From Tetragonia tetragonoides (Eukaryota > Streptophyta > Magnoliopsida > Caryophyllales > Aizoaceae), in contig CM076140.1 in NCBI GenBank assembly GCA_038025085.1, forward strand, positions 23,530,501 through 23,594,500: a DNA stretch of 64,000 bases. Direction: 5' to 3'. Below, piece by piece: positions 26,568 to 58,899 of this stretch (its first letter is position 1; every line of letters begins with the position of its first letter). Position numbers and translations under genes: made by a program. Under the pieces are notes generated by a model. It did no database searches. It worked only from the letters and a program-made list of their open reading frames with translations, and had not been told where the DNA came from.

Positions 26568-27453
26568 TGTAGGCTACCGGATTTTTCTCCCCTTTTTTCC
26601 TTCGCCCCGCCTTCGGGTTTCGGGCAGCCTGGGAGAGCGCGGTGGTTCGTTCGGGTTTTCGTGAACCTTTGAGTGTGAATGCACATAAAGATTTTCCTTT
26701 TGCACTTAGGACATGATCAAGATTGTCGGAAGTTGCCACCAAATTTAAGGTAATTTGGAAACGTTGGAATCAAGTCGATAGTCTAGAAAGACGTCAACTC
26801 AATTCCTGTGAACCCCAATCCCTATTGGGGAAATTGACTTCATAAATGAGTTCGGGGGCGTAGGTACGAGCTAGGAAGGTGTTAGGCATCCAACTCGCCC
26901 GTTGACAACAACGGCCTTTACTAATCGATTCAAAATAATTATTAATGCTACGGCTCCAAACAGGGTTCAATTTGTCCAAATTCCTAGTTTTAACTAATGG
27001 GTTGAAAAATCATTATTATTGTGACCACTTTTAACAATTTATCAAATTACATGCTTTTATTTGCTAAAAACGACAAATATGCTAAAACCTGCGAGTTAGA
27101 GGCAACCAAATAATCCACCAATCAATCCACAAGCAAAGCATAATTTAATCATAAAAAGCAATAAATAACCAATTTAAAACATTCATTCATCCATTAATTA
27201 GGCTTAATACAAGCCCTTTTGCTCGAAAACCCGCCATGCATGTACATATTACATAAACCAAAATCGTTAGTAATAACAAGCAATATAAAATTTACTGAAA
27301 ACCCTCAGGTTGGATTACCTGGATGCTCACAATGAACTTATTGGGTTATATTGCTCGAATTCATGCTCTTGGTGAAGTGTGAAGGTTTATTTTGTGGTGT
27401 TACCATGTTAGGGCTAACCTAAAGAAGAAGTAGAATCAGAATTTCTGGTTTAG

Positions 27454-27454
<1 letters not shown>

Positions 27455-27534
<80 letters not shown>
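27455..27534. repeat. (GA)n microsatellite in the E 3' LTR
   Basis: About 40 GA units. The matching site in the other LTR (58188-58242) has about 27 units, so the tract has changed length since insertion. Confidence 0.95.
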
Positions 27535-27537
<3 letters not shown>

Positions 27538-27692
27538 TCTAGAATTCCCAACTTGAGAGAGAAACTACCAACCAAAAGACCAACCCCTTCAACTGAACCA
27601 TAAGGTTTGTTTATAGAGAAGAGGGGGAGCTGCCACGGTTTGGCACGGAAATTAAATGGGGCTCGAATTTGCCGTCTACGAGAAAAGGTCCA

Positions 27693-27868
27693 GGCGGCCA
27701 TGCAACTAGGCCGAACGGCCAAACTGGCAGGACAAGAGGTCAAACCGCTTGGCAAGCGGGTTAGCCGCTAGGCAAGCGGTCAAGCCGCCTGGCCTAACGG
27801 CATGGTCGCTTGTCCTAGCGGTTACCGCTTGAACTCAAGCGTGACGGCTTGGACCTGGAGCGGCCTGC
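27693..27868 (-). promoter_or_regulatory. 21-bp dyad array, E LTR promoter (3' LTR copy)
   Basis: Tandem units of AGCGG-N5-CCGCT type, for example AGCGGTCAAGCCGCC, lie 80-250 bp upstream of the minus-strand TATA box. This copy is more degraded than the 5' LTR copy at 58399-58566. Confidence 0.8.
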
Positions 27869-28211
27869 CTGCATAGGCGCCTGACATGATTTTCTCGCGG
27901 GGGAGGCTTTTTGGAGGAGGTCCACACGGGATTGACTGAGTTCCCTTGTTTGACCAATGGTTGACTCAAGGGTTTGGGTTCCCTTTCGGGCCCTTAGGTT
28001 CAAAGAGGCCTATCTCTCAGTTTTGGACTCCAATTAAATTGAGTCCAACTGGTTTGGATCACCTATACAAAAGGCTTCCACTAGTTAAATCAAATGAACT
28101 GGGCTAATCATTGGAGCAATTATTCTCGCATCCCAAGTTCGAGCAAAATTCAATCCTTTCATCATCGGGTTTTTATGGGACTTATCATAGACACAATTTT
28201 TGGTGTCTACA

Positions 28212-28439
28212 GAAGCTCCTACTTTGGTCGAGCTCGAATAGAGCGAAGGTCAAAGTATTCCTGTGCCAGTACCTGCAATAAAGCAAGCAAACTGAATGAG
28301 GTGACAATCAGTTAAAGATAAACAATCATCTTTAGGATAAAGTAATAATTTACTCGGTCTATTTGACTGAGAGTTTGACCCTATGCTGTAGGTCACACAA
28401 TAAAATTCCTTCGATTATCAGTCGAACGGAGAGACCCTA
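28212..28439 (-). other. E 3' UTR, distal fragment cut off by insertion F
   Basis: Holds the polypurine tract next to the LTR and the last copy of the CTATGCTGTAGGTCACACAA tandem repeat, which continues on the other side of F at 41695. The F target duplication CCCTA is 28435-28439. Confidence 0.8.
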
Positions 28440-29716
28440 TGTAAGGACCCGGGATTTTCGTCCAATCCTTTTATATGTGCATTGGTTTCCACGGAGTGTG
28501 TCCTTATAGGAAATTTGTAAGTTGGGGATTTAGATAAATTCATGGGACCAACGAGTTAGAAAGGATTTTATAAAGACATGAATTGAATAAAAACCATGAA
28601 AGAGGTCACAAATCTGCTATCGACATTTTATCGAAGGGACAAACCGAAGGGACAACCCAATAGCGCGATAAGTGAACTAATCATGTTTTTAGAAAGACTC
28701 CCGCTCATATAGAACATATGAGTACCCAAGAATAAAGGGTTCGGGGGCGAAGGTACGAGGTGGGAAGGTATTAGACACCCAACTCTCCCGTATTATGACG
28801 ACCTCTACTAACTCAAGTTTGCTTAATAATTTAAAGACATAATTCCCATGCAAAACCGGATTAACAACCTAGACTTAGACTATTAATTGGTTCATCACAA
28901 GCATCACAACATTTATTTAACCCTTGTCTAGACATGCATTTGATTTGACAAGTTGAGCATTACAACGACTATACAGACAATATTTAGGAACCAATAAAAA
29001 CGTTACTTAACATGATATCTACATTATGACTACTAGAAAATAAACAATTAGGCAATTAATTTAATTTGAGCCCTCAGGAACTCGTACCTGAACTGTAGGC
29101 TATATTTGACAAGAATAGTAAAAATAGATCTCAAGTTTGGAAGAAAGAGGGGGAAGCTTAGAGTCAATACTACTGAGAATAGAGGGTGTCAACTGTAGAC
29201 TGTGTGTTTTGAACTGAAGGTGGAGGGTTGTATTTATAGGCGTGGAGGAGTAGGGTTGGACGGCCGAAAATGAGCTGAAAGTCGAATTGGGCTTGAAAAA
29301 TGAGTCGGGCCAGAAGCAGGGTCAGCGCCGCTAGTGGCCCTAGGATTTATCCCAGGGCCGCTGACGGCTGTCGGGTGCCAGCTGTATGACGACTTCCAGT
29401 CCACTTTTATTTTCCTGAGGAATTTAAATATTCCAAAAGATGTGAAAAATACCGTTTTACCCCTGAACGGTAAAAGACAGTTTTACCCCTAAATCGCAAC
29501 TTGGAGACCGGGAGTTGGAAAGAGGCATGAGACGTGTCGTTGGAAAGCTCTTGAACAGGGCTTTTGAATGGGATTGGAATAAAGGAGTGTTTGGAGGAAA
29601 AACCTGAGACCTTATCTTAACTATTAAAGCAAAAATAACAGTTCAAGCTTATAAATTACTCCATTCATCATCGGGCTTTTGCGGAGAAATCTGAAGGGGC
29701 TTTTTTGGCGTCTACA
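28440..29716 (-). repeat. 3' LTR of element F
   Basis: 1277 bp. On the minus strand it starts TGTAGACGCC after the polypurine tract AAAGTGGGGGCTTC (complement of 29717-29730). It carries GCCGCT dyads near 29333-29375 and a minus-strand TATA box near 29236-29246. Confidence 0.9.
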
Positions 29717-30026
29717 GAAGCCCCCACTTTGATCAAGCTTAAGTAAAAGCGAAGATCAAAGTATTCCGAAGGCGACATGCAAGATGCTGATGTGCACACG
29801 GTGTGTGAGAGTGTACAGTATATATGCATATGAAGACAAACCTGGGTTGGGACATGCTCGTAGCGTGCTAAGATTTCATCTCTGTGAACACAAGAGAAAA
29901 TAGAGGTTATGGTAGCAGGATAGAACATCGCTCGTAGATGGTCTAAACGTCTGCTTGGGACCTGTATTCAGAGTGAATGAAAAAGTTAGTAATACTTTGA
30001 GAATGATCAACGTGGAGTGCTTCGAC

Positions 30027-30540
30027 AAACAGTGACTAAACACCGCTCGGCGGGTGTCGAGATTCCGTCCCTGTACGAGAAATGAAAAGGTCAACGAGAC
30101 AGCGCGAATAAAAATAACGGCTGTAAATGGGAAGTAACACTGGTGAGAGTGAATAGTATAAATGCTTTATCGAGCAAAACAGTGACTAAACACCACTCGG
30201 CGGATCCGAGATTCCGTCCCTGCACAAGAAACGAAAAGGTCGACGAGACAGCGCAATCAAAATGACAGCTGTAAAATGGTTAAAACATATGAACAGTTTA
30301 AATGCAATAGTTTAAGCAATCATTGACTGAAACATATAAAAAATAATGGACAGCATAACTACCACAGTTTAAGCAATCATTGATTGACACAAAAACAAGT
30401 AACCTCGTAGAGGGACAGTTTAACCGCAATAGCTTAAGCGATCATTGACTGACCCCAAAAATTTATGACCTCGCAGAGGGACAGTTTAACAGCAATAGCT
30501 TAAGCGATCATTGACTGACCCCAAAAATTTGTGTTTTTGA
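30027..30540. repeat. Tandem repeats in the F 3' UTR
   Basis: Two direct copies of a roughly 150-bp unit (AACAGTGACTAAACACC at 30027 and about 30177) are followed by copies of a 66-bp unit (GACAGTTTAAC at 30414 and 30480, with older variants upstream). Hypervariable 3' UTR tandem repeats are a known trait of Tat/Ogre elements. Confidence 0.8.
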
Positions 30541-30635
30541 GTTGTTTAGTAAGGTCGATTGAATTTGTGGGCCAGATTGCTTTGCTCCCGCGGGGCCGTG
30601 GGACAGCAAGTGGGCCCATGTGTGCAGGTCTGTAG

Positions 30636-30722
30636 GGCCGCTAGCGGCCCAGGCCAGCGCCGGTAGCGGCGCTGGGCCTTTGTTGAAGGCTGCTAGCTGC
30701 TCTGGCCAGCGTCGCTGGGCTT
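30636..30722 (+). promoter_or_regulatory. Dyad array upstream of the F PMD gene
   Basis: Dyads based on CCGCTAGCGG start at 30638, 30660, 30690 and (degenerate) about 30712, a 22/30/22-bp spacing identical to the array in front of the second F gene. The ATG is about 300 bp downstream. The TATA box is unclear (possible AGTAAAAAG near 30731). Confidence 0.75.
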
Positions 30723-31016
30723 GAGCCGAGTAAAAAGCGCTTCGTCGCTTCCTTTTTTTTTCGCGTGCATTCTTCTTCCTCACTGAGCTTCATTGTCGAG
30801 AGCAAAATTTTCGAGCTTCCTCCATTGTCGAGTGCTCCACTTTGCTTGAGGTAAGTCGATTCTTGACCAAATTCTTCGGTTTTTGTCTTGAACTTGCTTA
30901 TTTTTCCGCTTAGTTGCTGAATTTTCGGTTGCATTGTTGAATGGGTGCCTGTTCTTTGCGAATCTGAAACTTTTAATTTCCCATTTGTAGAGAGAGAAAG
31001 CTTCATTTTATTCCCC

Positions 31017-33774
31017 ATGGCTCCCGCGGCTAAGGAAAAACGTCCCATGAGTGAGGAGTATGACCGGAGCCTTTTCCGCACTGGGCTACCTTCTACTAGT
31101 GCACCTCCGACTAGTCAAGCGGATGGAGCTCGGTTTTACCAGGACTTTTTCATGCGCCCGGCTGGGGTTTGGAACTGCAGTGTTCTATTACCGGATAGGC
31201 AGAGTCATCTGTCTAACTTTTTTTATTTATTTATTTATTTATTTTTTTTTTTTCTGTTCAGTATATTTGAACTGAAAATTAGAACTGTTAGTGCTTCGAC
31301 ACATGAACAAATTGGGACTTGTACTGGATTGATGGTCAGCTGTATATAATTTGTGTGGAATTATTTTGGAAGTGTTTGTAGTATATGGGGTGTTTAGAAA
31401 ATTTTGTTTGTTGGCTAGGGTGTTGGTGTTTTGTTGCAGGCTCATGGGGCTACATCCCATTGGGCTACGATGCTAGAGACCTTTTCAGTGGGGGCTAGAA
31501 ACCTGGTATTGGGCTTAGGTCTTGACCAATTCCTGACTGTTATCCCTACTTGTCACTCGGGGTCTAGGATTATTGTCAGGGGGTTATTGGAGAGGTTTTG
31601 GGATTCCACGAACACTTTCCATACACTTGTAGGGGAGATGTTCCCCACCCCTTATCAGTTTGCTGTGCTTACGGGGCTATCCTTTAGAGGTCGTCGTATT
31701 CGGTATGACGCGAGCTATTGGCAACAGAGTGACAGTTTGCTTGAGCTTTATGGGCCTGTGTCTGCCCACTTTGATAAGGATCAGGTCTCTTTGGTGCGGT
31801 TGTGGGGGGCCTTGGCGGAGCAGGGGCTTACTGACGAGCAGAGGGCCCATATTTTCCTGGCTTGCTTGCCTGGGTCGACCATCTTTGCTTAGAAGAAGAG
31901 CGTATGTCAAGTCGGTTTTCTGACATGTTTAGAGGATTTGACCAAGGTCCATGAGTACAACTTTGGAGCTTCCACTTATGCTTCCTTGGTGAGATGGTGT
32001 CGCCGGGCTTATAGGCCTAAGGAGACGAGTGAGAGGGCATCTATCTCGGGCCCATGGAGGATACTGGAGGTAGGCTCTCATACTTCACTCTCTCTTTGTT
32101 TTTTTGCCTATGCTTTTGAATGTGGAAATCATCCTTTTTGTTTGCTTGTATGGCAGCTATGGTTCTTTGAGTATTTTCCTTTGAGTATTTTCCGGCTTTC
32201 GGTCCTCACCATCCTGGTTTGAGGATGTTCCCATTAGGTTCACAGTGGATTGGTAGGGATAACCACTCGTTTACCTCTCTGGAGCATTTTTGGGCCATCT
32301 TCGAGAGCCATGCCGCATCCATGGTATGTTGTTGTTGACTTGTGCATTTTTTTTTTTTTGGTTCATTTTGTGTGAATGAACTTTTGAACTGGTAACGTGC
32401 AGGTGTCATGGTCCGCTTTTGATGGTATCCCTGGGGTTCCACCTCATATTACCCTTGAGTCCTTTAGAGTGTCTTCTCTGGGGGTGGTCTTTGGGGGGCC
32501 ATTTGGCTTTGTATGGTACTTGGGGGACCGTTTGACTCGGCTAGTCTATCCCTCCCTGGGTAGTCACCTGGTTCCGGAGGATCCTCCTTTTACCATGTTC
32601 TCTCTGCGTGGTCTGAGCGTGCGAGACATGGGAGTCGTGATCCGTGGTATGGCGGCCACGGAGTTTCTTATGCCGGAGGTTGTTGGCTTAGACCGCACGG
32701 CCGTGTACCTGACCTACTGCTTGGATCGCTTGATGCCATACCTTACTTCTGAGGTAAGAAACTTTTCTGCATCTTTTTAGCTGTATGTGTGATATACTGA
32801 CTTCTTGCATCTCGCAGGCGGATCGCCTAGCTCCTCAGGGTCCCAAGAGGTCCCATTCTAGAGTTCGGGGTCAGCCCCCAAGCGTGACATTGCCGACCAA
32901 TGAGGTCAGGTACATTGGGGAGAGTGGGGGACGCATAGTAGAGGAGTTCCCTTTTCATATGGCTGACGGAGAGGCTGTGGAGGGCTTGCCCTTGCCTGAT
33001 GGTTGTACGGGGGTAAGCTCCTTTTTATCCCTTCTTGTGTTTGTGTTTGCTTTTGAGTGCTAACTCTATCTCGTGGCTCTCCTTTTTTGTAGTTGAACTG
33101 GGAGCAGACCTCTCAGATCTTCAAGCTCATTCACCTGCTGAAGAAAGGCTATGGTCGAGTAATGGGCAAGAGGTAGAGTTCTCGGTCCAAGACCGTCGAT
33201 GTAAGTAGACTTTTATCTTTTGTTTAGCTAAGTGAAGTGCTTAACTTAACATCTCAACTTTGATTATCTGCAGATGTCCCAGTCTTCGTCTTCAGTGGGA
33301 CCTCGATACTCTTCTGCTGCGAGGGCTTCTTCGGCGAGCAAACCGTCTGTTGCTCATTCACCTCCCATAATTGTGACCAGGCATCCTGTTGATGAGGCGC
33401 CCGGACCTTCTGTACCGTATATTTCTGAGATGTTCTCTCCCGCAGGTTTCCAGCCTTCTCTTGGTAGCAGGCCTGTTGTTACGCCCTCGACTGGAGGTTG
33501 GGCGAACGCCCTTGGATGGGATGTGCCTCATACTGGGCCTTCGCATCAGGATATGGCTATGAATTTCGCCAGTCAGGCTACAGAGAGTTTCTTTGCCGCA
33601 GGGTTTCCGGCAGGTACCCCTATGCGCGCACCAGCATATGTTAGGCAGGACATGAGCCCCGACAACAGCAGGCCCATTTATAGTTCTTCTCTCCATTATT
33701 CAACTGGGAACAATGGTCATGGGCTGTCCGTTGATGATGAAGCTGACACCAACGGTGGTGACAACTCTGGCTGA
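31017..33774 (+). pseudogene. PMD (plant mobile domain) gene of element F, seven exons, antisense to gag-pol
   Basis: PMD proteins (MAIN/MAIL1 in Arabidopsis) act in transposon silencing and genome maintenance, and the domain also occurs in transposons. Probable exons: 31017-about 31210, 31440-32069, 32157-about 32322, 32403-32753, 32818-33012, 33093-33200, 33274-33774, most with consensus GT-AG joints. Exon 2 holds the PMD core: LLERFWDSTNTFH, then GEMFPTPYQFAVLTGL. The last exon is Ser/Pro-rich and low in complexity. Breaks: TAG at 31890-31892, a 14-bp tandem duplication near 32167-32195 that shifts exon 3, and TAG in exon 6. Exon order and positions match the E homologue. Confidence 0.75.
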
Positions 33775-34166
33775 GCGATGTTGGATTTCCTTGTAGACAT
33801 TGATCTTAAGGTTTTGAACTCCTGTTTTTATGCATTTTTATGATATGTATGATATGATGAATCGATTATGCCCGTCTGATCCCCAAATATGCAATGTGTT
33901 GTGCAGTAGGAGAAAGCCATAATTTAGGAAATAAGATAATAAAAAGGGTAAAAATTTTACAAGAAAAAGCAAAAACTACACATACTATACCCCCTAAAAA
34001 AAAATGGAAAAAATAATAAAAAAAAAGAAAAATTGAAAAAGATAAAACTAAGAGAGTCTCGGGCTTTGTAATTCAGCGCGCGTATCAAAACTGGGCTTAA
34101 ATCAGGTAGATCGGATCAAGGGAGCGAGCTGGAGCGAGAGGAAAAATCGGACCGGGCCAGGGTCAG

Positions 34167-34290
34167 GGCCGCTAGCGACACTGGGCTGGGCCGCTAGCGG
34201 CGCTGGGCTGCAGGCTGAGGCCGCTAGCGACGCTGGGCTGGGCCGCTAGCGGCGCTGGGCTGCAGGCTGAGGCCGCTAGCGGCGCTGGTT
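34167..34290 (+). promoter_or_regulatory. Dyad array and TATA box of the F DUF7745-like gene
   Basis: Perfect or near-perfect CCGCTAGCGG dyads start at 34169, 34191, 34221, 34243 and 34273 (22/30/22/30 bp). A clear TATA box (CTATAAATAGG, about 34334-34344) follows 50 bp later and the ATG is at 34415. Confidence 0.85.
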
Positions 34291-34414
34291 TGGGCTTTTT
34301 GTGGATTTCTGACTTCTTTGGCCCGCGTTTTTACTATAAATAGGATTTACGGGATACTTGATGTTGTATCACTTTTCAGACCCTAGCTCTCTCAAATTTC
34401 CCAAATCTTCTATC

Positions 34415-35760
34415 ATGGTGAAATCCTTTGAAAACCTGTTCGATGCTTGGTGCAAAAATCTGACAGTAGAAGACAAACTTGAAATGGCTTCATTCCATGT
34501 TTCTACCTTGCTGGCCTTAAGACCAATAAAAATATTGTGGCCTCTTTTTCGATCCGCTCTGAATTATTGGGACCCTGACCTGCATGTCTTGTGTTTTGGT
34601 AACTCTGAATTATGCCCTTTAGTTGAAGAATTTGCTGCGATCACTAATATGCATGATGTTCTTCCCCAGCTATGGCTTATGTGAGAGATGGTTCTAGGGA
34701 TCAGTACAAGAAATCCTTGGGTTTGTCATCTGCAAAAGCCAAAAGCATGGTTCTTGGTGTCGATGTGGACTTGGTTCAACTCTACGAAAAGTTTGCTATT
34801 TAATCAGAAAAGAATGCAATATTCAAGCGTTGTTACCGTCAGGCTTTTGTACTTTGCCTGTTAAACCGCCTATTGTTTGCTAATGCAGAATCTCCTAACT
34901 TGGGTAGAGCCTCGTTGCTGCGAGTGGTTAATCAAATGGTTGAAGGGCATTCTCCTTTGCATCTAGTTGTAGGGGAAACTATTATTGGGCTCGATAGGTT
35001 GAAAATTTCTCTTCATGAAGCTTTTTCTGGCAGCCCCATGTTGCTTCAAATTTGGTTATGTGAGCATCTGAGGTTAATAGAGTCGCCAGATAATATGATA
35101 GCTCGTGTTCCTCGAGCTTGGTCAAAGAAAACCTATACCGCCGCTAGCTTCTTGGTTAGGAAAAGGCTGTATTCTGAAAAGTCCCTTCCTGAATGGGACG
35201 CCTTTTTCCATGCGGGACCTGTTATTTGTTGGCATGTGTCCTGGTGGAGATTGACCTCCTTAGTGGCTTGTGACAATTTGGTTCCTCATACTACCGTATT
35301 GAGTTTGTACAGGACTATTTTCTTTTTCCCCTCTAGGGTCATGAGGCAATACGGGTTGAAGTAGTTTATTCCTCGTCAGGAAACTATGAGACCAACTATC
35401 GTAGCGTTGACCACTGAGTTTGCTACGGATTGGGGAAAGTATTAGCGTAGCCGGGACCGTTGGACTGTACCTCGGGTGATTGCCCCAACTCAAGTTTTTG
35501 AGACGTATCTGAACTGGCTTTCCTGCGGTGATGGAGAAACGAGACGAGCCCTTCGTCATGAGGAGTGGGACGAGCTAAAGCCTAAGTATGACTCAAAAAC
35601 AGGAAGTAAGAAAATAAAGGAAGGGCCTCAAGTGGGAGGCTATCACGTACTGAAAAGAGGCAAGCCCCCAGCTCAAGGGAGCAATCATAGGTCGTCCTCA
35701 AGTCAGGGTCCGTCAAAGATGACCTCTTCAACGAGGCCTTCTAAAGGGAAGAAGGATTAA
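34415..35760 (+). pseudogene. DUF7745-like gene of element F, antisense to gag-pol, intronless
   Basis: Starts MVKSFENLFDAWCKN. The family core is visible as ALNYWDPDLHVL then ELCPLVEEFAAIT, followed by SPLHLVVGETIIGLDRLK. The C-terminus is basic and Ser-rich (RPSKGKKD), possibly nuclear. Breaks: a frameshift near 34670, TAA at 34801, TAG near 35362 and another TAG near 35443. The intron that splits the E homologue after the Gly-Ser-Pro-x-Leu-Leu-Gln block is exactly absent here. The DUF7745 call rests on remembered family patterns, not a search. No biochemical function is known to me. Confidence 0.65.
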
Positions 35761-35964
35761 AGTAGTTTTCTAAGAAAGCAAGTCTAGTTTTTTAAAAAAT
35801 AATAATAAGAATTTGTTTAGCTTAAACCATCATAGTTGCATTTATTATTTATTTTTGTAACCTTAGTGAGTTAAGTATTTTTGCAATGTAAGCTTATTCG
35901 TTCAGTTTGAATAAAGATTACCCTTTTTTGAATGAGTTGAAAGGAATTTCGGATTGATTTTGGA

Positions 35965-36024
35965 CGGGCCCCTTGAAAGGGTTACCTATGTATCCAGTGT
36001 GGAATCAGGCCAGTGTAGTTCGTT
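35965..36024. other. Conserved non-coding block at the convergent gene junction, F copy
   Basis: GGGTTACCTATGTATCC followed by GGAATCAGGCCAGTGTAGTT lies between the 3' ends of the DUF7745-like gene and integrase. Element E has the same block at 48611-48669, while the flanking non-coding sequence is not conserved. Confidence 0.7.
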
Positions 36025-36048
36025 CAATTGTGTACGTCTCTTTTTTTT

Positions 36049-37338
36049 TTAATTTTTTTTTTTAGTTTTTTTTTGGACGTAGCACTTCTTCAGTTGGTCC
36101 ATATTGGTGAGCTGACTGAACTCGATGCCATCAATATCCATGAGTCTGACTGCGCCTCCTGACAGAATGTCTTTCATGATGAACGGGCCGGACCAATTTG
36201 GTCGAAATTTTCCCCAAGGGTCGGTAACTGGGGCACGTAATTCTTTCCAAACTAAGTCCCCTTCCTTTAAATTCCGAGGTCTAACCTTTTTGTTGAATGC
36301 TCTTGCCATGCATTGCTGGTACATGTGGGAATGGTCTAGGGCCCGTAGGCGTCTTTCATCCGTGAACATGAGCTCTTCGTAGCGGGCTTGTAACCATTAG
36401 GTTTCGGGAATTTCACCCTCTAGGGCTACGCGCATAAAGGGTAGTTGGACTTCTATGGGTAGAACTGCTTCCATTCCGTAGACTAGGGAATAAGGTGTTG
36501 CTCCCGTAGAGGATCTTATGGATGTCCTATAACCCCAAAGGGCAAATGGGAGTTTGATGGGCCAATCTTTGTAGTTTTCTATCATATTTTCAATGATAGT
36601 CTTAAGGTTTTTGTTGGCGGCTTCTACTGCGCCATTGGTTTGGGGACGGTAAGGGGATGATTTGTGGTTGTAGTTCTTGAGGAGGGTGGCTGTCTCGGCT
36701 TTGAAGTGGGATCCATGGTCACTGGTAATTTCATGCGGAACACCGTATCGACAAATGATGTTGTTCCTTATGAATTTGGACACTTGTTTGGAGGTAAGGA
36801 TGGCATAGGATTGGGCTTCGACCCATTTGGTAAAATAGTCTATGGCTACTAGGATGTATTCATGTCGTCCCGAGCCCTTTGGGGTGATCTTAACAATGAT
36901 ATCTATTCCGCATGCGGAAAATGGCCAAGGGGATGTGAAGTTGTGGAGCATTGAGGGTGGCATATGCTGCAGGTTGGCATATATCTGACATTTCTTGCAC
37001 TTCTTGACATAGTCGTAGCAATCCCTTTCCATAGTGGTCCAATAGTATCCCAACCGTAGGACCTTTCTAGAGAGCATTCGACCATTCATGTGTGGCCCGC
37101 ACACACCATTGTGTACCTCGTCCATAATCTTTGCGGCTTCTTCGGAGTTCACTCATCTGAGGTTGACCCCGTTGTGGGACTTTCTGTACAGAACCCCCTT
37201 GTATTCTATGTATTGAGCCGCTAAGAGACGGATGGCCCGTTGAGCTCTTAGTGGTGCATCTTCAGGATATATTCCTTTGGTGATGTAATTGAAGACGTCT
37301 TGGTACCAAGGATCCTTTTCGATTGGAGCCAAAGTCAT
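36049..37338 (-). pseudogene. Element F integrase
   Basis: Upstream segment 37338-37153 (DPWYQDVFNYITKGIYPED) is the linker before integrase. The zinc region has H-H-C-C (HNGVCGPHMNG, CKKCQIYANLQ). The catalytic core keeps Asp in CGIDIIVK, Asp in TSDHGSHF and Glu in NGAVEAANK. The C-terminal domain (FRPNWSGPFIMKDILSGGAV) ends at 36049. A TGA at about 37153 and a stop at 36397 split the frame in three. The sequence is closely similar to E's integrase, so this is the best-preserved pol domain in F. Confidence 0.85.
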
Positions 37339-37393
37339 CTCTGTGTCGAGGTTGTGATAGTTCAGCCACTCAAATTCCTGTAAAAGTGAAAAT

Positions 37394-37804
37394 CTACATT
37401 CTTGCTTTGCGAAGTTTACTTACATTGCTTAAATTAATTAACTCTGTTTCCTCCACAATGGAGGTCTTTTGTTCATGATTGATTACTGCTTTTAGCAGAT
37501 CTTTAGGCAACTCATTTTCATCATTGGGTTTATCAATAGCTAAACAAGGTAACAAATAAGCACAAAGATTTTTCATTTTATTGATATTAGAATTGGAAAT
37601 AGCAAGAAAGGGATCTGAATTTCCCTTCACATTGATACAAGACTTAGAAGAAGTAAAGGGGACCCTTCCCGGTCCTGACTCATATTTAGGACCTAAGCTA
37701 GACACTGACTCTGGCTGAGACTCGGAATCAGATTCTTCCATCATTGGTCCTTCCCCGGTAGATATCGTCCATTCGGGCCAGTCTAGCTCACTTCTTTGCG
37801 CCAT
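37394..37804 (-). pseudogene. Element F acidic spacer region up to the RT deletion
   Basis: Corresponds to E 52791-53258 plus the first RT-linker residues (KTSIVEETELINL). It then ends at a 46-bp GT-AG segment (complement of about 37379-37424) instead of continuing into RT. Beyond that segment the frame would continue in phase 0 into EFEWLNYHNLDTE and integrase. RT and both RNase H domains are missing. Confidence 0.7.
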
Positions 37805-37980
37805 CCCATTGTGACATCTTCAGTAGTATATATTAGGTCCGCAGGATTGAAGTTGCGATCATTGAGAGCCATTACATCCTCATCCATCTCGGGAGTTTCA
37901 ACCATTCTAGTTTCTTGGCCAAACAAAAGACCTAGCAGCTGGTTCCCTGGTGCTTTGGTCCATTCTTGACTTGCCGGTTT

Positions 37981-39351
37981 TTAGGGGTGCTGTGCCTCCT
38001 CGTCCAATTGATTGCAGTCTCGGAAGATTTCAAAACCCGAGTGTGTGACCTTAGCTTCTTCGTCATAGTATGGCTCAGGGAAGCCATAATATGGGCAGTA
38101 ATCTCCTTCTGTGATGAACTGGCCATTTAGAGTGTGGCTATACGGTGAGATGACTTGTTTTTCCTTAAATTGTTTCCTTTGTTTCAGAGCCTGGTCTTGG
38201 ATTTCTTTGTCAGTAGGTTTGTAACCAAGCCAAAAGGAGTTGTTTTTGTCTTCTAACTTGAAGGTGGTGGGCCCTTGTCCATTTCTTCCTAAACCCATAC
38301 CGGGTATGTACCCTTGCTTCTTGAGAAAACCATTAACATGAGGGTTTGAGTGTGGTATGAACGGTGCCTGATCTATTTCCAACACGTTGACTTCGGGTTG
38401 TGATTCATACTTACATATGGTGATCTTGAATATTTGGGACTTCGGAGGAGAAACAATTCCGGAATCAATGATGAACTGGATGTCACACTTCAAGCGATGA
38501 CATTGGTCAGTAAGGTGGCCAATGCATATGTGGTATCTACAATAAAGGTAATGATCCTCCTCTTCTAGTAAGACCCCTTCTAGGAACCGGAGATCTCCAC
38601 GACGAAGTAAGGCTGTCATAAAATCATGAACAGGTACTGCCAGTGGCGTGAATTTATGGGTAGGCGTGCTTGATCTTTTCTTGGATAACCAATGATGTGC
38701 AGGCCACATGGTCCCTTTATCAATGAAAGTTTGGATTTTGTCTCTTAAGTTCCTGCAGTCATTGGTGTGAGGTCCGCAGGCTCGGCAGTATTCACAGTAA
38801 ACACCTGGGTTTTCATTTTTCGGGATGAGTTCATAAGTGGGCCCTATTGGTTGCATGTAGCCATATACCCTCATTTGTTGAAAAATGTGTTCCTGAGGCC
38901 AGCGAGGTTGCTCTTGATTGAGAAGAACTTTGTCACCTTCTAGAGCCTTAATTCTTTGTTCTAACCCATCGACCGTCTTCTGTAACCTTTTGATCTCTAA
39001 GTGATAGACAACTATGTATTGAGTTAGGTGCTCAATATCATCGTGTGCTTCAACAATGGCCTGGGTTGGCTTGCCTGCGCTTCTGTACTCAACGAGGCGC
39101 GGGGTTTCATCGGGATCAAGGCCTACTTGGATTTTGGCCTCCCGGAGTGATCGGTCCAGTTGTTCATCCAAATCAAGGGATTCGTCTTGAGTATCAAGTA
39201 TTGACTCTCTTGAAGTTTCCCGAATTGGATATGCAGTTGTCACAAAATGAGTTTTGATTTTCTTAGCATTCTGGCCCATTTCCGACCCTGGCATGAGGAG
39301 AGATCCGTTCTGTGTATCTTCGGCTGAGGAACGCTTGAGGGACCCTGACAT
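37981..39351 (-). CDS. Element F Gag-like remnant: coiled coil, two zinc knuckles, G-patch
   Basis: From the Met at 39351 (MSGSLKRSSAED) the frame is open for about 456 codons. It holds an acidic N-terminus, a predicted coiled coil (IKRLQKTVDGLEQRIKALEG), two knuckle-like motifs (CRACGPHTNDC and CRYHICIGHLTDQC), and a G-patch-like motif (GYIPGMGLGRNGQG). The conserved YSHTLNGQF and YYGFPEPY blocks also occur in E at 53249-53692. The capsid core found in E Gag and the protease are absent, so this is a fused Gag-tail/spacer protein. It is the only long undamaged minus-strand frame in F. A nucleic-acid-binding role is inferred. Confidence 0.7.
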   Translation of the reverse strand: MSGSLKRSSAEDTQNGSLLMPGSEMGQNAKKIKTHFVTTAYPIRETSRESILDTQDESLDLDEQLDRSLREAKIQVGLDPDETPRLVEYRSAGKPTQAIVEAHDDIEHLTQYIVVYHLEIKRLQKTVDGLEQRIKALEGDKVLLNQEQPRWPQEHIFQQMRVYGYMQPIGPTYELIPKNENPGVYCEYCRACGPHTNDCRNLRDKIQTFIDKGTMWPAHHWLSKKRSSTPTHKFTPLAVPVHDFMTALLRRGDLRFLEGVLLEEEDHYLYCRYHICIGHLTDQCHRLKCDIQFIIDSGIVSPPKSQIFKITICKYESQPEVNVLEIDQAPFIPHSNPHVNGFLKKQGYIPGMGLGRNGQGPTTFKLEDKNNSFWLGYKPTDKEIQDQALKQRKQFKEKQVISPYSHTLNGQFITEGDYCPYYGFPEPYYDEEAKVTHSGFEIFRDCNQLDEEAQHP

Positions 39352-39390
39352 GATCTGAGTGAGTAGAAGACCTTTGAGAATAAAAAACAA

Positions 39391-40370
39391 AGATCATGAG
39401 ACTCTCATCTAAGAAAAAGTTGACCCACACATAGAAAATCACATTGTCCTAGAAAAAAGGTCCTTAAGCCTAAATGCCTGAATATTTCCCTAATATCCAA
39501 GGAAAATAAAGTCAATGAACGAAAATAAGAAAAATAGAAAAAGATGGAGTATCCTATTTTTTTTTTTTTTTCTAGACTCAAAGAAAATGGAAAATGGGAT
39601 AAAATAAAATAAAAGAATTTCGGGCACTTTTTTTTTCGAATTTTTTTTGTTCGGCGGCTTCGATTTTTTGCCGATTTTTTTATTTTATTTTCGATTTCCG
39701 TTTTTTTTTTACCAGATCTGAATTACATCAAAAGAAAAAGGAAAATAAAGAAATGGAAAAAAGGGAAGGGGAAATCAAAAGACTGACTATTTTTTCTTTT
39801 TTTTTACTAAAAAGATGCTAGAAGATTGTTCAATGACTTTTTAGAATATATCATCGAGAAATTGATGAGTGTTCATTGAATTTGAATTCTCGCACCATCT
39901 TCAGGCATTAGGAACTAGCTAAAAATAAAAGAAATGACTCCTAGCACGTAAGCACATGTTGGCACATAATCACGATATTCATGCGTTTAGGCAAGCACTA
40001 CAATGAGATAATTACAGGCAAACATGTGATCAGACGGGCATTACGACGACATATGCACAACAAGCAAGCGAATGCACGAATGTGGGTTAGAGGCTTTTGG
40101 CTCCTGTGAGGTTATCAATTGTAATTATTTTCATCAACAAGGATTGATGAGTCATGGGTGAGGAAGCGTCGATTTGCACGATAGGACAACTGTATATTCC
40201 TTTAGATATACGGGCTGTCTACGAGTTGCGACACAAACTTCCTCGAGGGTCGATAAGGGTCAAAATTGTGCCTAAGCACATGCAAATGATGCAAATGATG
40301 CAAAAATATGGAACATAGTTATTAAATAATTAAGCAAACTTGACTTTCGAGCCTCACCCTCTTAAATAAA
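39391..40370 (-). other. 5' leader of element F
   Basis: Non-coding, with long T/A homopolymer runs (39550-39800) and no visible tandem repeat. Confidence 0.6.
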
Positions 40371-40388
40371 TCCCCAGTGAAGTCTCCA
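40371..40388 (-). other. Primer-binding site of element F
   Basis: Minus-strand TGGAGACTTCACTGGGGA directly follows the 5' LTR. It is of the same type as E's site (57269-57286) and of Tat-lineage sites in general. Confidence 0.75.
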
Positions 40389-40389
40389 C

Positions 40390-42433: not shown

Positions 42434-42601
42434 GGCGATCAAACCGCCATGTCAAGCGGTCGAGCCGTTAGGTGGAGCGGCTAAGCCGCTGGATGGAGCG
42501 GTAAAACCACTTGGTGGAGCGGTCGGACCGCTCTCCCTAACAATCAAGCCATTGGGACTAGCGGCCAATATGCATGGCTTACGGTTCAACCGCCAGCTGG
42601 G
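42434..42601 (+). promoter_or_regulatory. 21-bp dyad array of the E PMD gene promoter
   Basis: Units start at 42434, 42455, 42476, 42497, 42518, 42539, 42560 and 42581, exactly 21 bp apart. The best unit is AGCGGCTAAGCCGCT. A TATA-like CATAAAAGG follows at 42656-42664 and the ATG is at 42924. Confidence 0.85.
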
Positions 42602-45873: not shown

Positions 45874-45959
45874 CCCTGTCCTTCAGGTGCTCCATCATCG
45901 AGTGGACCCGGAAAGTCATCTCAGGCGGGTCCGAGTACTGGCGAAGATGGCCAGTGATA

Positions 45960-46495: not shown

Positions 46496-46660
46496 AGCGG
46501 CTATGCTGGAGCTCCAGCGGTTGCCGCGTGGGCAAGCGGCTATGCAGCTTGGGCTAGCGGTTTGGCCGCTTGACCAAGCGGTCATGCTGCTGGCTGGAGC
46601 GGCTTAGCCGTTGGTCCTAGTGGCTAAGCCGTCTGGACTAGCTGAGAGGCCGCCTGGCTC
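46496..46660 (+). promoter_or_regulatory. 21-bp dyad array and TATA box of the E DUF7745-like gene
   Basis: Units start at 46496, 46516, 46535, 46556, 46577, 46598, 46619 and 46640, the last six exactly 21 bp apart. Examples are AGCGGTTTGGCCGCT and AGCGGCTTAGCCGTT. A TATA box (CTCTATATAG, 46717-46726) lies 60 bp downstream and the ATG is at 46814. Confidence 0.87.
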
Positions 46661-46813: not shown

Positions 46814-48366
46814 ATGGTGGACTTTGATGATGTCTTTGATGCTTGGTTGGCTTCCATAACTGTAGAGGAGAGGTTAGAGCTTACCCCCTTCCATCTTAAT
46901 GCCTTCTTTCACCTCAAACAAGTTAAGATTTTGTGGGACTTTCTTCATGCTTCCATTGAGTTTTGGGACCCCAAGTTCCATGTTTTCCGTTTTAGTGCTC
47001 ATGAGATGTGTCCGTTGGTGGAGGAGTTCTCCGATATCATTGGCTTTCCAACTGAAAGCCCTCCCGCCATTCCTTACTTGGGGAATGCTTTTGTGGGTGA
47101 TTTTCAAAGATACCTCGGGTTGTCTCCCCGTCAAGCGGGTCAAGTGCTTCATGGTGAGGATGTTGATCTTTCCAAGCTCGTGACTTTCTTCACCTCTAGG
47201 GCCTGGGATGCGATGGATATGAGGTACAAGAAACGTGCCTTTTTATTTTGCCTCCTTCATCGTTACTTGTTCGTTGGTGGTAACGAAGATGCTCTTATTC
47301 CCTCCGAAAAGAAGTTGACCATCAATAGGGCCAAAGCTTGCCTTCTTAGGGTGACCGAGCAAATTCAATGGGATAGCTCTCCTATGCACTTGGTCGTGGG
47401 AGAGACAATCCTTGCTTTAGATAGGCTCAAGAGTAATCCTCAAGAGTCCTTTACCGGGAGCCCTATACTCCTTCAAGTAAGTTTTGTGATAAAGCCTTAA
47501 TCTTTGTGGATATAACTTTATGTGGTGAAATTCTCATCTTGTATTGACTTGAATTTTCCTTTGTTGTTTTTGTGTAGATATGGCTTCAAGAGAGACTTCA
47601 CTTGCTTGAGGCTCCCATTGACACTAGGAAGTTCCTCCCTAAGCACTTTTCGGCGAGGCGCCGAAAGTTCTCCGAATCCTCTCGGGAGGAGTGGATAGCA
47701 TACTTCTACACCGACATCCAACCGGCTTGGTTTGTCCCACGGTGGCGTACCACCAAAATTGTAGGGTGTAGTGAGAATTTGCCCTTTACGAGGATCATCG
47801 GCTTGTACACTTTTACATTCTTCTTACCGAACCTCCTCCTCCGCCAATACGACTTAAGGCAAAGGATCCCGAATGTAAGTTGTGAACCTCCTTGCCAAAG
47901 GCCTTTAACATCCTCTTTGGGTTCTAACTGGGAACGACACTAGAACTGTCGCCAGGTGTGGACTAAGCCGGTATACCCGCATTCAAAAGGGTTATCTATC
48001 TTTTACAAGGAATGGATTCGGAGCAGTGACCACCAAGTCAACCAAAGGCTCCTAGAAGAGGAAAATGAGTTGTTCTGAGCCCGCAAATATGATGAGCCCA
48101 GCGGTGTAAGGATAACTCCCATTGATAGGCCCGCTAAGCCTTCCAACCCCCAAACTAAGGGTAAGGGAAAAGGCAAGGCAAAGGCCCGATCTAAGAAGAG
48201 GAAGAATCCGGCCCACTCGGCCAAGAAAGTAGCTCCAATTAGGCCCAATGATCACGAGGCCTCTTCTAGTTGTGGTAGGGAAAGATGGACTCCCAAAGAA
48301 CGAATGAAACTTGATGAGCCTAGTGAGCCTGCCCAAGAGCCCGAAGTCAAAGACAAGGAGGAGTAG
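46814..48366 (+). pseudogene. DUF7745-like gene of element E, two exons, antisense to gag-pol
   Basis: Exon 1 (46814-47476, 221 codons, MVDFDDVFDAWL) is open and holds the family core IEFWDPKFHVFRF then EMCPLVEEFSDIIGFP, and later SPMHLVVGETILALDRLK. A 101-bp GT-AG intron (47477-47577) is followed by exon 2 (IWLQERLHLLEAP). The frame is lost near 47880-47960. The C-terminal part resumes in another frame as a Lys/Arg-rich tail (TKGKGKGKAKARSKKRK), probably nuclear, and stops at 48366. Exon 1 could still encode a protein. The family assignment comes from pattern memory. Confidence 0.68.
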
Positions 48367-50714: not shown

Positions 50715-51637
50715 TCTTCGAGTGCATTACAAAAGCCGGGCTCAGTGCGCCTTTGAATATGAATGGGCATAATGATTACATCACCTAGAATATTTACCAT
50801 GGAGGCCATTTTTGCTAAGGCATCCGCGAACTGGTTGTCATATCTAGGAATTTATGTAAAACGGACGTGAGTGAAATATTTGGCTATCTTTTCAAGATAT
50901 TCCTGGTAAGGTGCCAGGGATTCGCTTTTCACTCTCCACTTTTTGGAGACTTGATTTATGATGAGAGTTGAGTCTCCATATACCTTTAGGTCCTTAATTT
51001 GTAGTTCTATTGCCGCTTCTAAACCAATGATGCATGCTTCATATTTGGCGTCGTTGTTAGTCACCTCGTGGTCTAATTTGACGGCTATGGGTGTATGTGC
51101 GCCTTCTGGGCTGACTAATAATACTCCTACGCCATAACCTTTTTGGTTTGATGCTCCGTCAAAGTACAACTGCCAAGTGGTTTCTTCGACACTCATTATT
51201 CCTTCGTAAGGAAAGTCATGTGTGACATCTTCACTATTAACTGGGTTTTCAGCGAGATGTTCATAAATGGCGTGTCCTTTGATCTCCTTTTGGTATTCAA
51301 AAGTTAGATCGAATTCTGAAAGCAAGACAGTCCACCTTGCTATTCTTCCACTAATAAGAATGGGTTTTTCGAACAAGTACTTTAGTGGATTCATCGATGA
51401 CTTTATATGGATAGAATGTTGTAGCATGTAGTGTCGAAGCTTCTTCGTTGCAGTGACCAATGCGAGACACGTTTTCTCTAGTGTGGAGTAGCATGGTTCG
51501 TACTCTAAGAACTTCTTGCTAAGGTAGTATATTTCCTTTTCGTCATTCTCCACCTTTTGGGCCAACATAGCACCCATGGCGGTTTCTGTGACTGTTAGGT
51601 ATAGCATAAGTGGTTTTCCCGGAATTGGCGGAACCAA
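50715..51637 (-). pseudogene. Element E dual RNase H region
   Basis: The first part is the conventional RNase H domain (PLMLYLTVTETAMGAMLAQ, then YYLSKKFLEYEPCYSTLEK), degraded in its acidic motif. The second is the archaeal-like RNase H typical of the Tat lineage: LYFDGASNQKGYGVGVLL, NNDAKYEACIIGLEAA, VYGDSTLIINQVSKKW, with Asp-Glu-Asp positions kept. The open frame is 51637-50852. A stop at 50852 and a degraded linker separate it from integrase. Confidence 0.85.
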
Positions 51638-52803
51638 TACGGGTGGATTAGCTAAGCACTCCTTAATTTTGTCGAAAGCTTGTTGGCGTTAATCATCCCA
51701 GGTAGATTTAGTGTCCTTTTTGAGATTTTTTGAAGATAGGCTCGCATGTAATAGTCAACTTGCATATGAATCGACATATATATTGGAGTCGTCCTAAGAA
51801 TCCTCTTTTGTCCTTTTCATTTTTAGGAGAGGGCATGTCTCTTATAGCTTTGATTTTGGTAGGATCAATTTCGATGCCTCTTGTGCTTACGACAAATCCT
51901 AAGAGCTTGCCAGAAGTTACTCCAAATCACACTTTTGAGGATTCAATCTCATGTTGTAATTCCGAAGTCTATCGAAGAATTTCTTAGAGAGGGTATATGC
52001 CCTTCTCTCTCCTTGGATTTGATGATCATATCGTCTACATACACCTCGGCTTCCTTGTGCATCATGTCATGTAGAAGGGAAGTTGCGGTTCTTGGGTATG
52101 TTGCTCTCGCATTCTTCAACCCGAAAGGCATGACGGTATAGCAATACGTTCCCCATTGGGATATGAAGGTGGTTTTCTCCATATCTTTTTCGGCCCTTTG
52201 GATTTGGTTATACCTTGCATAGCCATCCATGAATGATAAGAGGGCATGTCCTGCGGTATTGTCCACTAGTACGTCTATATGTGGCAGGGGGAAGTCGTCC
52301 TTTGGACTTGCCTTGTTTAGATCTCTGAAATCGACGCACATCCTTACTTTGCCATCCTTTTTCGGAACGGGCACTATGTTAGCAACCCATTCTGGATATT
52401 GAGCAACCTTAATAAAACCTGTTGCGAGCTGTTTCTGCACCTCTTCTTTGATTTTCAATGTCCACTCAGGTTTCATTCTCCGAAGTTTTTGCTTTACCGG
52501 TTTTGAATCCGGATTGAGCGGTATTGTATGTTGTTCTATCTCACGACTTATTCCCGGCATATCTTTGTAGGACCAAGCGAAAACGTCTATGTATTCTTTT
52601 AAGAGATTTATAAAACTTTCTCGCTGTTTGGGAGTTAACGATAAGCTAATGCGCACTGGGCGCGACTCTTGATCGCTTGCAAGATTGATTAATTCTGTTT
52701 CTTCCATAATTGAAGTCCTTTGTGCATGCTCTAGTAGTGCTTTAGTTACTTCTTTGGGCAATTCTTGTTCATCTTTTGAATTATTAGCTACTAAGTAATC
52801 CAA
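51638..52803 (-). pseudogene. Element E reverse transcriptase
   Basis: The linker (SIMEETELINLASDQ, ISLSLTPKQRESFINLLKEY) leads to RT fingers (VPVPKKDGKVRMCVDFRDLN) and palm (MPFGLKNARATYPR; catalytic YVDD in VYVDDMIIKSK). The usual Gly-Ala after LKNA is changed to Arg-Ala. The frame shifts at 51949 soon after YVDD, and the thumb/connection is in other frames to 51638. The catalytic aspartates survive, but the gene is broken. Confidence 0.87.
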
Positions 52804-56233: not shown

Positions 56234-56578
56234 AGATATTATACTCTTGACTAAAAGGAAAGGGGAGAGATATTATCTCGACTCAATACGGGATAAAGCA
56301 AAAGATATTATACTCTTGACTAAAAGGAGAGGGGAGAGTTATTATCTCGACTCAATATGGGATAAAGCAAAAGATATTATAGTCTTGACTAAAAGGGTAG
56401 GGGAGAGATATTTTCTCGACTCAATATGGGATAAAGCAAAAGATATTATACTCTTGACTAAAATGGGAGGAGAGAGATATTATCTCGACTCAATATGGGA
56501 TAAAGCAAAAGATATTATACTCTTGACTAAAAGAGGAGGGGAGAGATATTGTCGAGATCTTTGACTAAAACTCACTAC
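56234..56578. repeat. 69-bp tandem repeat, five units, in the E 5' leader
   Basis: AGATATTATACTCTTGACTA recurs at 56234, 56303, 56372, 56441 and 56510, exactly 69 bp apart. It lies between the primer site and Gag. Because 69 is a multiple of 3, one plus-strand frame stays open through it; this is probably incidental. Confidence 0.92.
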
Positions 56579-57268: not shown

Positions 57269-57286
57269 TCGCCAGTGAAGTCGCCA
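57269..57286 (-). other. Primer-binding site of element E
   Basis: Minus-strand TGGCGACTTCACTGGCGA lies directly after the 5' LTR. It is similar to F's site and fixes the element's orientation. Confidence 0.75.
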
Positions 57287-57894
57287 CTGTAGGCTATCGG
57301 ATTTTTCTCCCCTTTTTCCCTTCGCCCCGCCTTCGGGTTTCGGGCAGCCTGGGAGAGCGCGGTTGTTCGTTCGGGTTTTTGTGAACCTTTGAGTGTGAAT
57401 GCACATAAAGATTCTCCTTTTGCACTAAGGACATGATTAAGATTGTAGGAAGTCGCCACCAAATTTAAGGTAATTTGGAAATCTTGGAATCAAGTCGATA
57501 GTCTAGAAAGACGTCAGCTCAATTCCTATGCACCCACATCCCTATTGGGGAAATTGACATCAAAAATAATTTCGGGGGCGTAGGTACGAGCTATGAAGGT
57601 GTTAGGCACCCAACTCGCCCGTTGACAACAACAGCCTTTACTAATCGATTCAAAATAATTATTAATGCTACGGTTCCAAACAGGGTTCAATTTGTCCATA
57701 TTTCTAGTTTTAACTAATGGGTTGAACAATCATTATTATTGTGACCACTTTTAACAATTTATCAAATTACATGCTTTTATTTGCTAAAAACGACAAATAT
57801 ATATGCTAAAACCTGCGAGTTAGAGGGCAAACAATTAATCCACCAATCAATCCACAAGCAAAGCATAATTTAATCATAAAAAGCAATAAATAAC

Positions 57895-58181
57895 AATAAT
57901 ACACATATGATGTATAAAATTAAGAAAGAGGGACGGATTAGATCAAAAAAAGAAAGAGCGGAATAATTGTAGAAGAAAAATAGTTAGAAAATAGTTGCTC
58001 CCAAGATTTGAACCTACAATCTACAAGGTAATAGAAAATAGGTCATACCAATACTCCACACAAGTATTTATGATACAAAATGCCTTCCATAATATATATA
58101 CTTTATAAAACTGACAAAACAAATTACCGAAAAAGAGGGTCGACGCCTGTAACCACTTGTACCCCCCTAGATACGCCCCTG
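57895..58181. other. Foreign block inside the E 5' LTR
   Basis: About 287 bp with no counterpart in the other LTR, which instead has 27180-27451. On the minus strand it starts CAGGGGCGTATCTAGG, resembling a common hAT-type end, and contains a box-B-like GGTTCAAATC (complement of 58005-58014). The other LTR's version resembles the F LTR, so this copy is the altered one. The nature of the inserted sequence is unresolved. Confidence 0.7.
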
Positions 58182-58183
58182 AG

Positions 58184-58187
<4 letters not shown>

Positions 58188-58242
<55 letters not shown>
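58188..58242. repeat. (GA)n microsatellite in the E 5' LTR
   Basis: About 27 units, homologous in position to 27455-27534. Confidence 0.95.
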
Positions 58243-58244
<2 letters not shown>

Positions 58245-58398
58245 TCTAGAATTCCAACCTTGAGAGAGAAACTGCCAACCAAAAGACCAACCCCTTCAAC
58301 TGAACCCTAAGGTTTGTTTATATAGAAGAGGGGGAGCTGCCAGGGTTTGGCACGGAAATCGAATGGGCCTCGAATTTGGCGTCTACGAGAAAAGGTCC

Positions 58399-58566
58399 AG
58401 CGGCCATGCAACTAGGCCGAACAGCCAAACCGGCAGGACAAGCGGTCAAACCGCTTTGTCAAGCGGTCAAGCCGCCTGGCCTAACGGCATGGCCGCTTGT
58501 CCTAGCGGTCACCGCTTGAACTCAAGCGTGACCGCTTGGACTTTGAGCGGTCTTCCTGCATAGGCG
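58399..58566 (-). promoter_or_regulatory. 21-bp dyad array of the E LTR promoter (best copy)
   Basis: Eight units start at 58399, 58420, 58441, 58462, 58483, 58504, 58525 and 58546, every one exactly 21 bp apart. The best unit is AGCGGTCAAACCGCT. The array is 75-240 bp upstream of the minus-strand TATA box. Confidence 0.9.
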
Positions 58567-58899
58567 CCAGACATGCTTTTCTCGCAGGGGAGGCTTTTCT
58601 GAGGGGGTCCACGCGAGATTGACTGAGTTCCCTGGTTTGACCAAGGGTTGACTCAAGGGTTTGGGTTCCCTTTCGGGCCCTTAGGTTCAAAGAGGCCTAT
58701 CTCTCAGTTTTGGACTCCAATTGAATTGAGTCCAACTGGTTTGGATCACCTATACAAAAGGCTTCCACTAGTTAAATCAAATGAACTGGGCTAATCATCG
58801 GAACAATTATTCTCGCAACCCAAGTTCGAACAAAATCCAGCCCTTTCATCATCGGGTTTTTATGGGGACTTATCATAGACACAATTTTTGATGTCTACA

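Follow-up and report, generated by a model that had tools for sequence, protein, structure and literature searches.

The analysed window is a 64,000-nucleotide stretch of Tetragonia tetragonoides DNA (assembly GCA_038025085.1, contig CM076140.1, positions 23,530,501 to 23,594,500) that contains two Tat-type Ty3/gypsy retrotransposons, E and F, with F nested in E (Table 1). The two elements are built alike, with gag-pol encoded in parts by the minus strand and a pair of plus-strand genes between pol and the 3' long terminal repeat (LTR). The first of these antisense genes has a match to the plant mobile domain (PMD) and the second is DUF7745-like. An array of short dyads composed of the half-site AGCGG/CCGCT is located in the LTR and at the promoters of both antisense genes of E and of F, and probably constitutes a cis-module that is shared by the three promoters of one element.

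The window contains 86 exact AGCGG/CCGCT sites, 47 of which are found within eight arrays that together occupy 1,103 bp, or 1.7% of the window. They represent six types of promoter, as the two LTR copies of each element enter the count as separate arrays. The half-site is better described as AGCGGY, a form present at 46 of the 47 array sites versus 16 of the 39 sites outside the arrays. The E half-sites flip orientation every ~10–11 bp, giving a dyad repeat every 21 bp. Forward half-sites are in exact 21-bp phase in the E 5' LTR (5/5) and E PMD (5/5) arrays, as well as at 3/4 sites in the E 3' LTR and 4/6 sites in the E DUF7745 array. The irregular steps are one of 20 bp and one of 19 bp in the E DUF7745 array and one of 20 bp in the E 3' LTR, and the reverse half-sites of the E 5' LTR are scattered (8, 8, 6 and 5 modulo 21). 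An earlier sequence-only reading of this DNA described the E arrays as exactly phased at 21 bp; this stands for the forward sites of the E 5' LTR and E PMD arrays, but is too strong for the E DUF7745 array, the E 3' LTR array and the reverse 5' LTR sites because of these 19- and 20-bp steps and the scatter. The F arrays are composed of CCGCTAGCGG-type dyads with steps of 30 and 30 bp in the LTR, 22 and 30 bp at the PMD gene and 22, 30, 22 and 30 bp at the DUF7745-like gene, in agreement with the spacing proposed in that reading. The F PMD array consists of one exact dyad, one copy with one mismatch and one copy with two mismatches.

A TATA-like box is located 46–86 bp downstream of the array edge in five of the six promoter types, with distances of 76–79 bp across the E LTRs and 86 bp in the F LTRs and the remaining values given in Table 1. 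The sole candidate in the F PMD promoter is a TAAAAA found 10 bp from the array. Both the placement of the arrays upstream of a TATA-like box in five promoters and the doubt expressed over the F PMD box were borne out.

When 150-bp windows are ranked by their number of half-sites, the seven densest clusters all lie at the LTRs and antisense promoters of E and F, which confirms the arrangement first proposed from the sequence. The E 5' LTR and F DUF7745 arrays contain eight sites each, the E DUF7745, E PMD and E 3' LTR arrays seven each, and the F 5' LTR and F PMD arrays four and three respectively; the windows that follow contain two, the F 3' LTR included. Among the rare 5-mers (314 classes), the highest minimum count found across an element's three promoters is seven in E and four in F; in 4830 triples of 300-bp stretches drawn at random, a minimum of four was never attained. 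In the three E promoters, AGCGG leads the 512 5-mer classes in minimum count and is second in enrichment; in the F promoters it comes eighth in minimum count, beneath other pieces of the same palindrome. When each array was set on its own against 500 first-order Markov simulations of its stretch, the observed count was reached twice for the F 5' LTR array and never for five further arrays; at the F PMD promoter (25/500) and in the F 3' LTR (32/500) the counts are not extreme. The cis-module is real, statistically strong and well placed, and its geometry is private to each element.

Sharing of the arrays within and between elements

Statements on conservation are limited here to E and F, two elements in one window. 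When their 600-bp promoters were aligned, all six within-element pairs matched through the arrays, versus none of the nine E–F pairs; a single 39-bp E–F promoter match was identified outside the arrays. With the arrays masked, no within-element match remained between the 600-bp promoters. Alignment of the arrays alone gave z scores of 6.8 to 19.8 for the six within-element pairs (0/200 shuffles) and of −1.0 to 1.5 for the nine between-element pairs, and the flanks adjoining the arrays showed nothing significant in 12 comparisons. An array shared within one element only is the pattern by which a transposable element-encoded regulator with a self-target array would be recognized, and this pattern is observed in both elements. 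For the bare half-site, mixed E/F promoter triples score 3–7, hence it is not element-specific. The prediction that sharing would be better within than between elements is therefore upheld for the units and their geometry and fails for the bare half-site. E and F use one and the same half-site, whereas unit and geometry are private (21-bp alternating dyads versus 30 or 22/30 bp), as the sequence-only reading had it.

In E, the LTR array is collinear with the DUF7745 array. The two are ~70% identical over ~195 bp, irregular steps included, and have the same orientation relative to transcription, and we take one to have been copied from the other, or both from a third. This alignment extends ~20 bp beyond the LTR array; a shared flank was considered and rejected, as the flank alone gave a z score of −1.1. 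As the arrays align only inside an element, a single cis-module seems to have been distributed by each element among its three promoters. The LTR copies have come to differ after insertion by one 19–20-bp unit in E and by one 30-bp unit in F, and therefore whole units come and go.

Alignment of 22 E units in register, with two irregular DUF7745 units left out, gave a mean of 1.08 bits for half-site columns versus 0.44 for spacer columns, and the better-conserved columns form two reverse-complementary pentamers 10 bp apart. Dyads of this kind are foldable by nature, and the order of the parts places both internal arrays within the predicted gag-pol transcript, so that they might act through hairpins formed in RNA (the genomic RNA, for instance) or in DNA. 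Such hairpins are very improbable. Only 3 of 42 deviating half-site positions in the 22 units are compensated in the partner, which disfavours an RNA hairpin in particular; the U3 arrays lie upstream of the TATA box, and E and F differ in both orientation and loop size. A coding role for the 21-bp arrays as seven-residue repeats can be practically dismissed. A period of 21 bp corresponds to seven codons, and the E PMD array has one frame free of stops, but the three E arrays have no uninterrupted frame with a peptide in common, the LTR array is located upstream of the TATA box, and the 22-bp step of F would break the frame.

Antisense proteins and putative readers of the arrays

The E PMD protein exhibits, in addition to its PMD, a match to DUF1985 (1.8e-4, 21.9 bits) that is below the cut-off of 35.1 bits. 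The E DUF7745-like protein also has a weak PMD match (7e-4), and the second antisense gene of F matches DUF7745 at 0.0055, below the cut-off. Basic tails were noted by eye in three of the four antisense proteins, at the N-terminus of the E PMD protein and at the C-termini of the E DUF7745 and F DUF7745-like proteins. Identity between E and F in the aligned parts is 67% for the integrase (104/155), 43–44% for the DUF7745-like protein (32/74 and 40/90) and 29% for the PMD protein (41/142); judged by these alignments, the PMD diverges more between the elements than the integrase does. No protein relatives were found in viral contigs (two queries), genome contigs (one query) or plasmids (one query); the DNA collections searched comprise, according to their descriptions, viruses, bacteria, archaea and plasmids and are uninformative on conservation in plants. 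Searches of solved structures gave three weak matches in one case (E-values 0.53–0.82) and none in another. The array motif occurs in at least 120 stretches of viral contigs, which are taken for chance matches in phages.

Each element probably carries a portable cis-module, the AGCGGY dyad array, at its U3 promoter and its two antisense-gene promoters, where the arrays may function as enhancers. A sequence-specific and probably dimeric protein would read the array and set the three promoters together. The likeliest reader would be the element's own antisense protein of the PMD superfamily, either the PMD or the DUF7745-like product. It would act as an activator or anti-silencer specific to its family, closing a positive loop between the antisense genes and gag-pol. 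The encoding of the binder by the element itself is suggested by sequence features and by analogy, and has perhaps slightly less than an even chance. This reader is favoured because of the PMD, DUF7745 and weak DUF1985 matches, the divergence of the PMD, the basic tails and the precedents of VANC, MAIN, Grande and Retand (see below), taken together.

A number of results weigh against an element-encoded reader or against function of the arrays as such. The DUF1985 match of E is below the cut-off and no such match was found by Pfam in the F pieces scanned, a fold prediction for the E PMD exon was discarded at a pLDDT of 38.6, and the literature has yet to settle what the plant mobile domain itself does. 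That E and F share the half-site is explained at least equally well by a host factor. Shared arrays could also arise without function when one promoter is copied to another; since the arrays are related by copying, sharing alone is no proof of function. After insertion, the E LTR pair has kept 42/45 half-site and 141/152 spacer positions, a similar decay that is expected of a dead copy. Half-site retention after correction for bias is not significant between the E DUF7745 array and the E 5' LTR (P 0.13) or E 3' LTR (P 0.075). It is lower in P value for PMD/LTR (0.007) and PMD/DUF7745 (0.0002), and both of these values rest on alignments driven by the half-sites. Purifying selection based on the raw figures (93–97% versus 72% identity) is not claimed, as these are inflated by the choice of intact sites. 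Protection of CpG sites after insertion showed no clear difference between array and remainder of the LTR (12/17 versus 30/49 kept in E, 4/5 versus 27/45 in F), in an alignment in which the replaced stretch of the E 5' LTR is misaligned and the LTR bounds deviate by a few bases from those finally adopted. Selection on the half-sites is likely, though not proven.

The arrays might be viewed as functionless by-products of promoter duplication and tandem slippage, shared because one promoter was copied. The collinearity of the E LTR and DUF7745 arrays, the one-unit differences in both LTR pairs and the two non-significant retention values are all consistent with this explanation, which is nonetheless unlikely: the arrays keep their similarity while the adjoining flanks show none that is significant, the conserved columns are the paired pentamers described above, and F has the same half-site at the same place in another geometry.

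A host transcription factor that binds AGCGGY is a real, if less than probable, alternative to the element-encoded reader. E and F would then hold AGCGGY in U3 and have spread the same enhancer to their internal promoters, and the difference in geometry would reflect a factor that is tolerant of spacing, or monomeric. The half-site is common to both elements though the rest of the arrays is not alignable, as would be expected of such a factor. Repeated U3 boxes of Tnt1 and Tto1 bind host factors. Plant LTRs often recruit host factors, with ONSEN as an example (PMC12786077). None of ten plant motif cores counted (a short list) is common to the E and F arrays, however: the GCC-box occurs twice, the W-box three times (E only), the LOB-type GCGGCG six times (F only), and the DRE, G-box and TCP cores do not occur. 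The differing dyad geometry, with the same host and the same half-site, is also less expected of a dimeric host factor.

Comparison with known systems

The closest analogy to an element-encoded reader is offered by the VANC proteins of VANDAL transposons, which carry DUF1985 and cause methylation to be lost through binding to tandem motifs specific to the VANDAL family (PMC5735166). This analogy had been drawn in the sequence-only reading and gained weight with the sub-cut-off DUF1985 match of the E PMD protein, VANC being likewise element-encoded and fast-evolving. The VANDAL transposase is much more conserved than VANC (PMC5735166), similar to the E/F integrase, which is more conserved than the PMD. 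The target repeats of VANC contract and expand (PMC10398659), and the LTR copies of E and of F differ by whole units. Differences are also apparent. VANDALs are Mutator-like DNA transposons of Arabidopsis whereas E and F are LTR retrotransposons, and their proteins are therefore not classed as VANC. The VANC21 motif YAGTATTAY is non-palindromic, and the word "palindrom" is absent from the main text of PMC5735166. For VANC, both DNA binding and the loss of methylation have been demonstrated (PMC5735166), while the account of E and F given here is drawn from sequence.

Antisense accessory genes of Tat elements have been described as gene23 of Grande, TRP28 of Retand and in RIRE2 (PMC11963269, PMC7264820). 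In Grande the antisense gene is driven by a promoter of its own and its product is nuclear (PMC7264820), the TRP28 proteins are predicted to be DNA-binding (PMC11963269), and a regulatory role has been proposed for the antisense genes (PMC11963269, PMC7264820), the function of which is left open in both sources. As in E and F, these are antisense ORFs between pol and the 3' LTR in a region with family-specific tandem repeats. In the pieces of E and F that were scanned, the matches are to PMD and DUF7745 rather than to TRP28, and the consulted portions of the Tat accessory-gene accounts describe no motif array common to the LTR and antisense promoters.

PMD proteins are also encoded by the host genes MAIN and MAIL1, which share the domain family with E and F and differ in being host genes with a role in transposable element silencing and gene expression. 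Genes that need the MAIN/MAIL1/PP7L complex are enriched in a promoter motif, the reader of which is unknown (PMC7156037), and the PMD-A clades are encoded exclusively by Gypsy elements (PMC7156037, PMC5418596). A further likeness, as an analogy only, is found in an unrelated retrovirus, human T-cell leukaemia virus 1 (HTLV-1), which combines LTR responsive elements with an antisense regulator. The Tax responsive repeats of HTLV-1 are 21 bp long and are read by host CREB with Tax. Several Tax responsive elements are present in the LTR, and the antisense HBZ negatively regulates Tax-driven transcription (PMC9822710).

Taken singly, antisense genes, tandem repeats and self-target motifs specific to a family are already known; a limited literature search, covering its sources in part, found no description of a Tat element in which one array is common to the LTR promoter and the antisense promoters. 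With a defined DNA sequence present at all three promoters, a vague guess at regulation becomes directly testable. If the protein of each element binds its own array and not that of its neighbour, LTR retrotransposons would have a VANDAL-like autoregulatory, family-specific switch, and DUF7745, PMD and DUF1985 would gain a function. By analogy with VANC, it may tentatively be proposed that Ogre/Tat elements run a self-activation or anti-silencing system, in which an antisense protein of the PMD/DUF1985 superfamily binds a family-specific, geometry-coded AGCGGY dyad array at the LTR and at its own and sister-gene promoters, protein and array coevolving while the half-site stays constant. If this is true, the PMD, DUF7745 and DUF1985 proteins of retrotransposons, Mutator-like elements (MULEs) and host genes would be one family of motif-reading chromatin regulators.

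Structure of the two elements

Table 1. Arrays, antisense genes and structural parts of elements E and F, numbered from the first nucleotide of the window.
Feature	Position	Strand	Remarks
E 5' LTR U3 array	58399..58566	.	9 exact half-sites, 21-bp period; TATATAAA 76–78 bp downstream, minus strand
E 3' LTR array copy	27693..27868	.	7 exact half-sites; one unit (19–20 bp) different from 5' copy
E PMD-gene promoter array	42434..42601	.	7 exact half-sites; CATAAAA 56 bp downstream
E DUF7745-gene promoter array	46496..46660	.	7 exact half-sites; TATATA 61 bp downstream
F 5' LTR U3 array	41273..41347	.	30/30-bp dyads of the CCGCTAGCGG type; minus-strand TATAAA 86 bp downstream
F 3' LTR array copy	29323..29367	.	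one 30-bp unit shorter
F PMD-gene promoter array	30636..30722	.	dyads at 22/30 bp, one exact; without clear TATA box
F DUF7745-gene promoter array	34167..34290	.	five dyads, 22/30/22/30 bp, three exact; TATAAA 46 bp downstream
E antisense PMD gene	42924..45959	+	PF10536 1.8e-17, weak DUF1985; end approximate, exons not resolved
E antisense DUF7745 gene	46814..48366	+	PF24924 1.6e-6, weak PMD match
F antisense gene with PMD match	31017..33774	+	2.8e-7, 30.5 bits, below cut-off 34.9
F antisense DUF7745/PMD-like gene	34415..35760	+	below cut-off; split over several open frames, apparently broken
Element E, Tat-type Ty3/gypsy	26568..58899	-	LTR pair, ends, target site duplication, Pfam matches
Element F, Tat-type, nested in E	28440..41694	-	LTR pair, ends, target site duplication, integrase match
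E 5' LTR	57288..58899	-	
E 3' LTR	26568..28211	-	
F 5' LTR	40390..41694	-	
F 3' LTR	28440..29716	-	
E RNase H pair	50855..51688	-	RT_RNaseH then RVT_3, RVT_3 between RH and integrase; Pfam

Element E is ~19 kb in length once F is subtracted and is flanked by the target site duplication CTTAC (26563–26567 and 58900–58904); that of F is CCCTA (28435–28439 and 41695–41699). The minus strand of E has Pfam matches to gag, reverse transcriptase (RT), RNase H (RH), RVT_3 and integrase, with the integrase match (50067–50726) directly following the RNase H pair. The order RH, RVT_3 (the second RNase H, aRH) and integrase belongs to the Ogre/Retand elements of angiosperms (PMC6317226) and is present in E, the element in which it was looked at. 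An extra ORF with a plant mobile domain, found in 57% of Ogre elements (PMC6317226), is likewise present in E, with the F match being below the cut-off. A primer binding site antisense to tRNA-Arg is a further trait of the Ogre clade (PMC9289625).

The E 5' LTR contains a stretch of ~280 bp (57850–58160) without a clear counterpart in the 3' LTR, by alignment and by eye, which is apparently a replacement or an insertion after integration. Both E LTRs contain perfect (GA)n runs of unequal length on the transcribed side of the TATA box (27457–27534 and 58187–58242). Tandem repeats of 53/133 bp are located beside the F insertion site (41752–42204), and 4.6 copies of a 69-bp repeat precede gag (56233–56550). 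The end of the E integrase frame is broken by sequence unlike pol (48880–49535), which by eye looks like a small insertion. In F, 66-bp tandem repeats are found between the 3' LTR and the PMD promoter (30369–30530), and a long minus-strand frame upstream of pol (37984–39393) encodes a G-patch domain (PF01585, 1.9e-5), a domain that has been reported in plant LTR elements (PMC9289625).

Element E itself was apparently inserted into the gag-pol of another gypsy element (25999–26358 and 58900–60148). To the right of E there is an RT frame and to the left an open frame without a Pfam match, and a protease-like stretch (by eye) adjoins the end of E. One more gypsy element in the window, with repeated ends 5305 bp apart, contains approximately three 21-bp tandem units at each end (13677–13738 and 18981–19043), the consensus of which is unlike the E unit.

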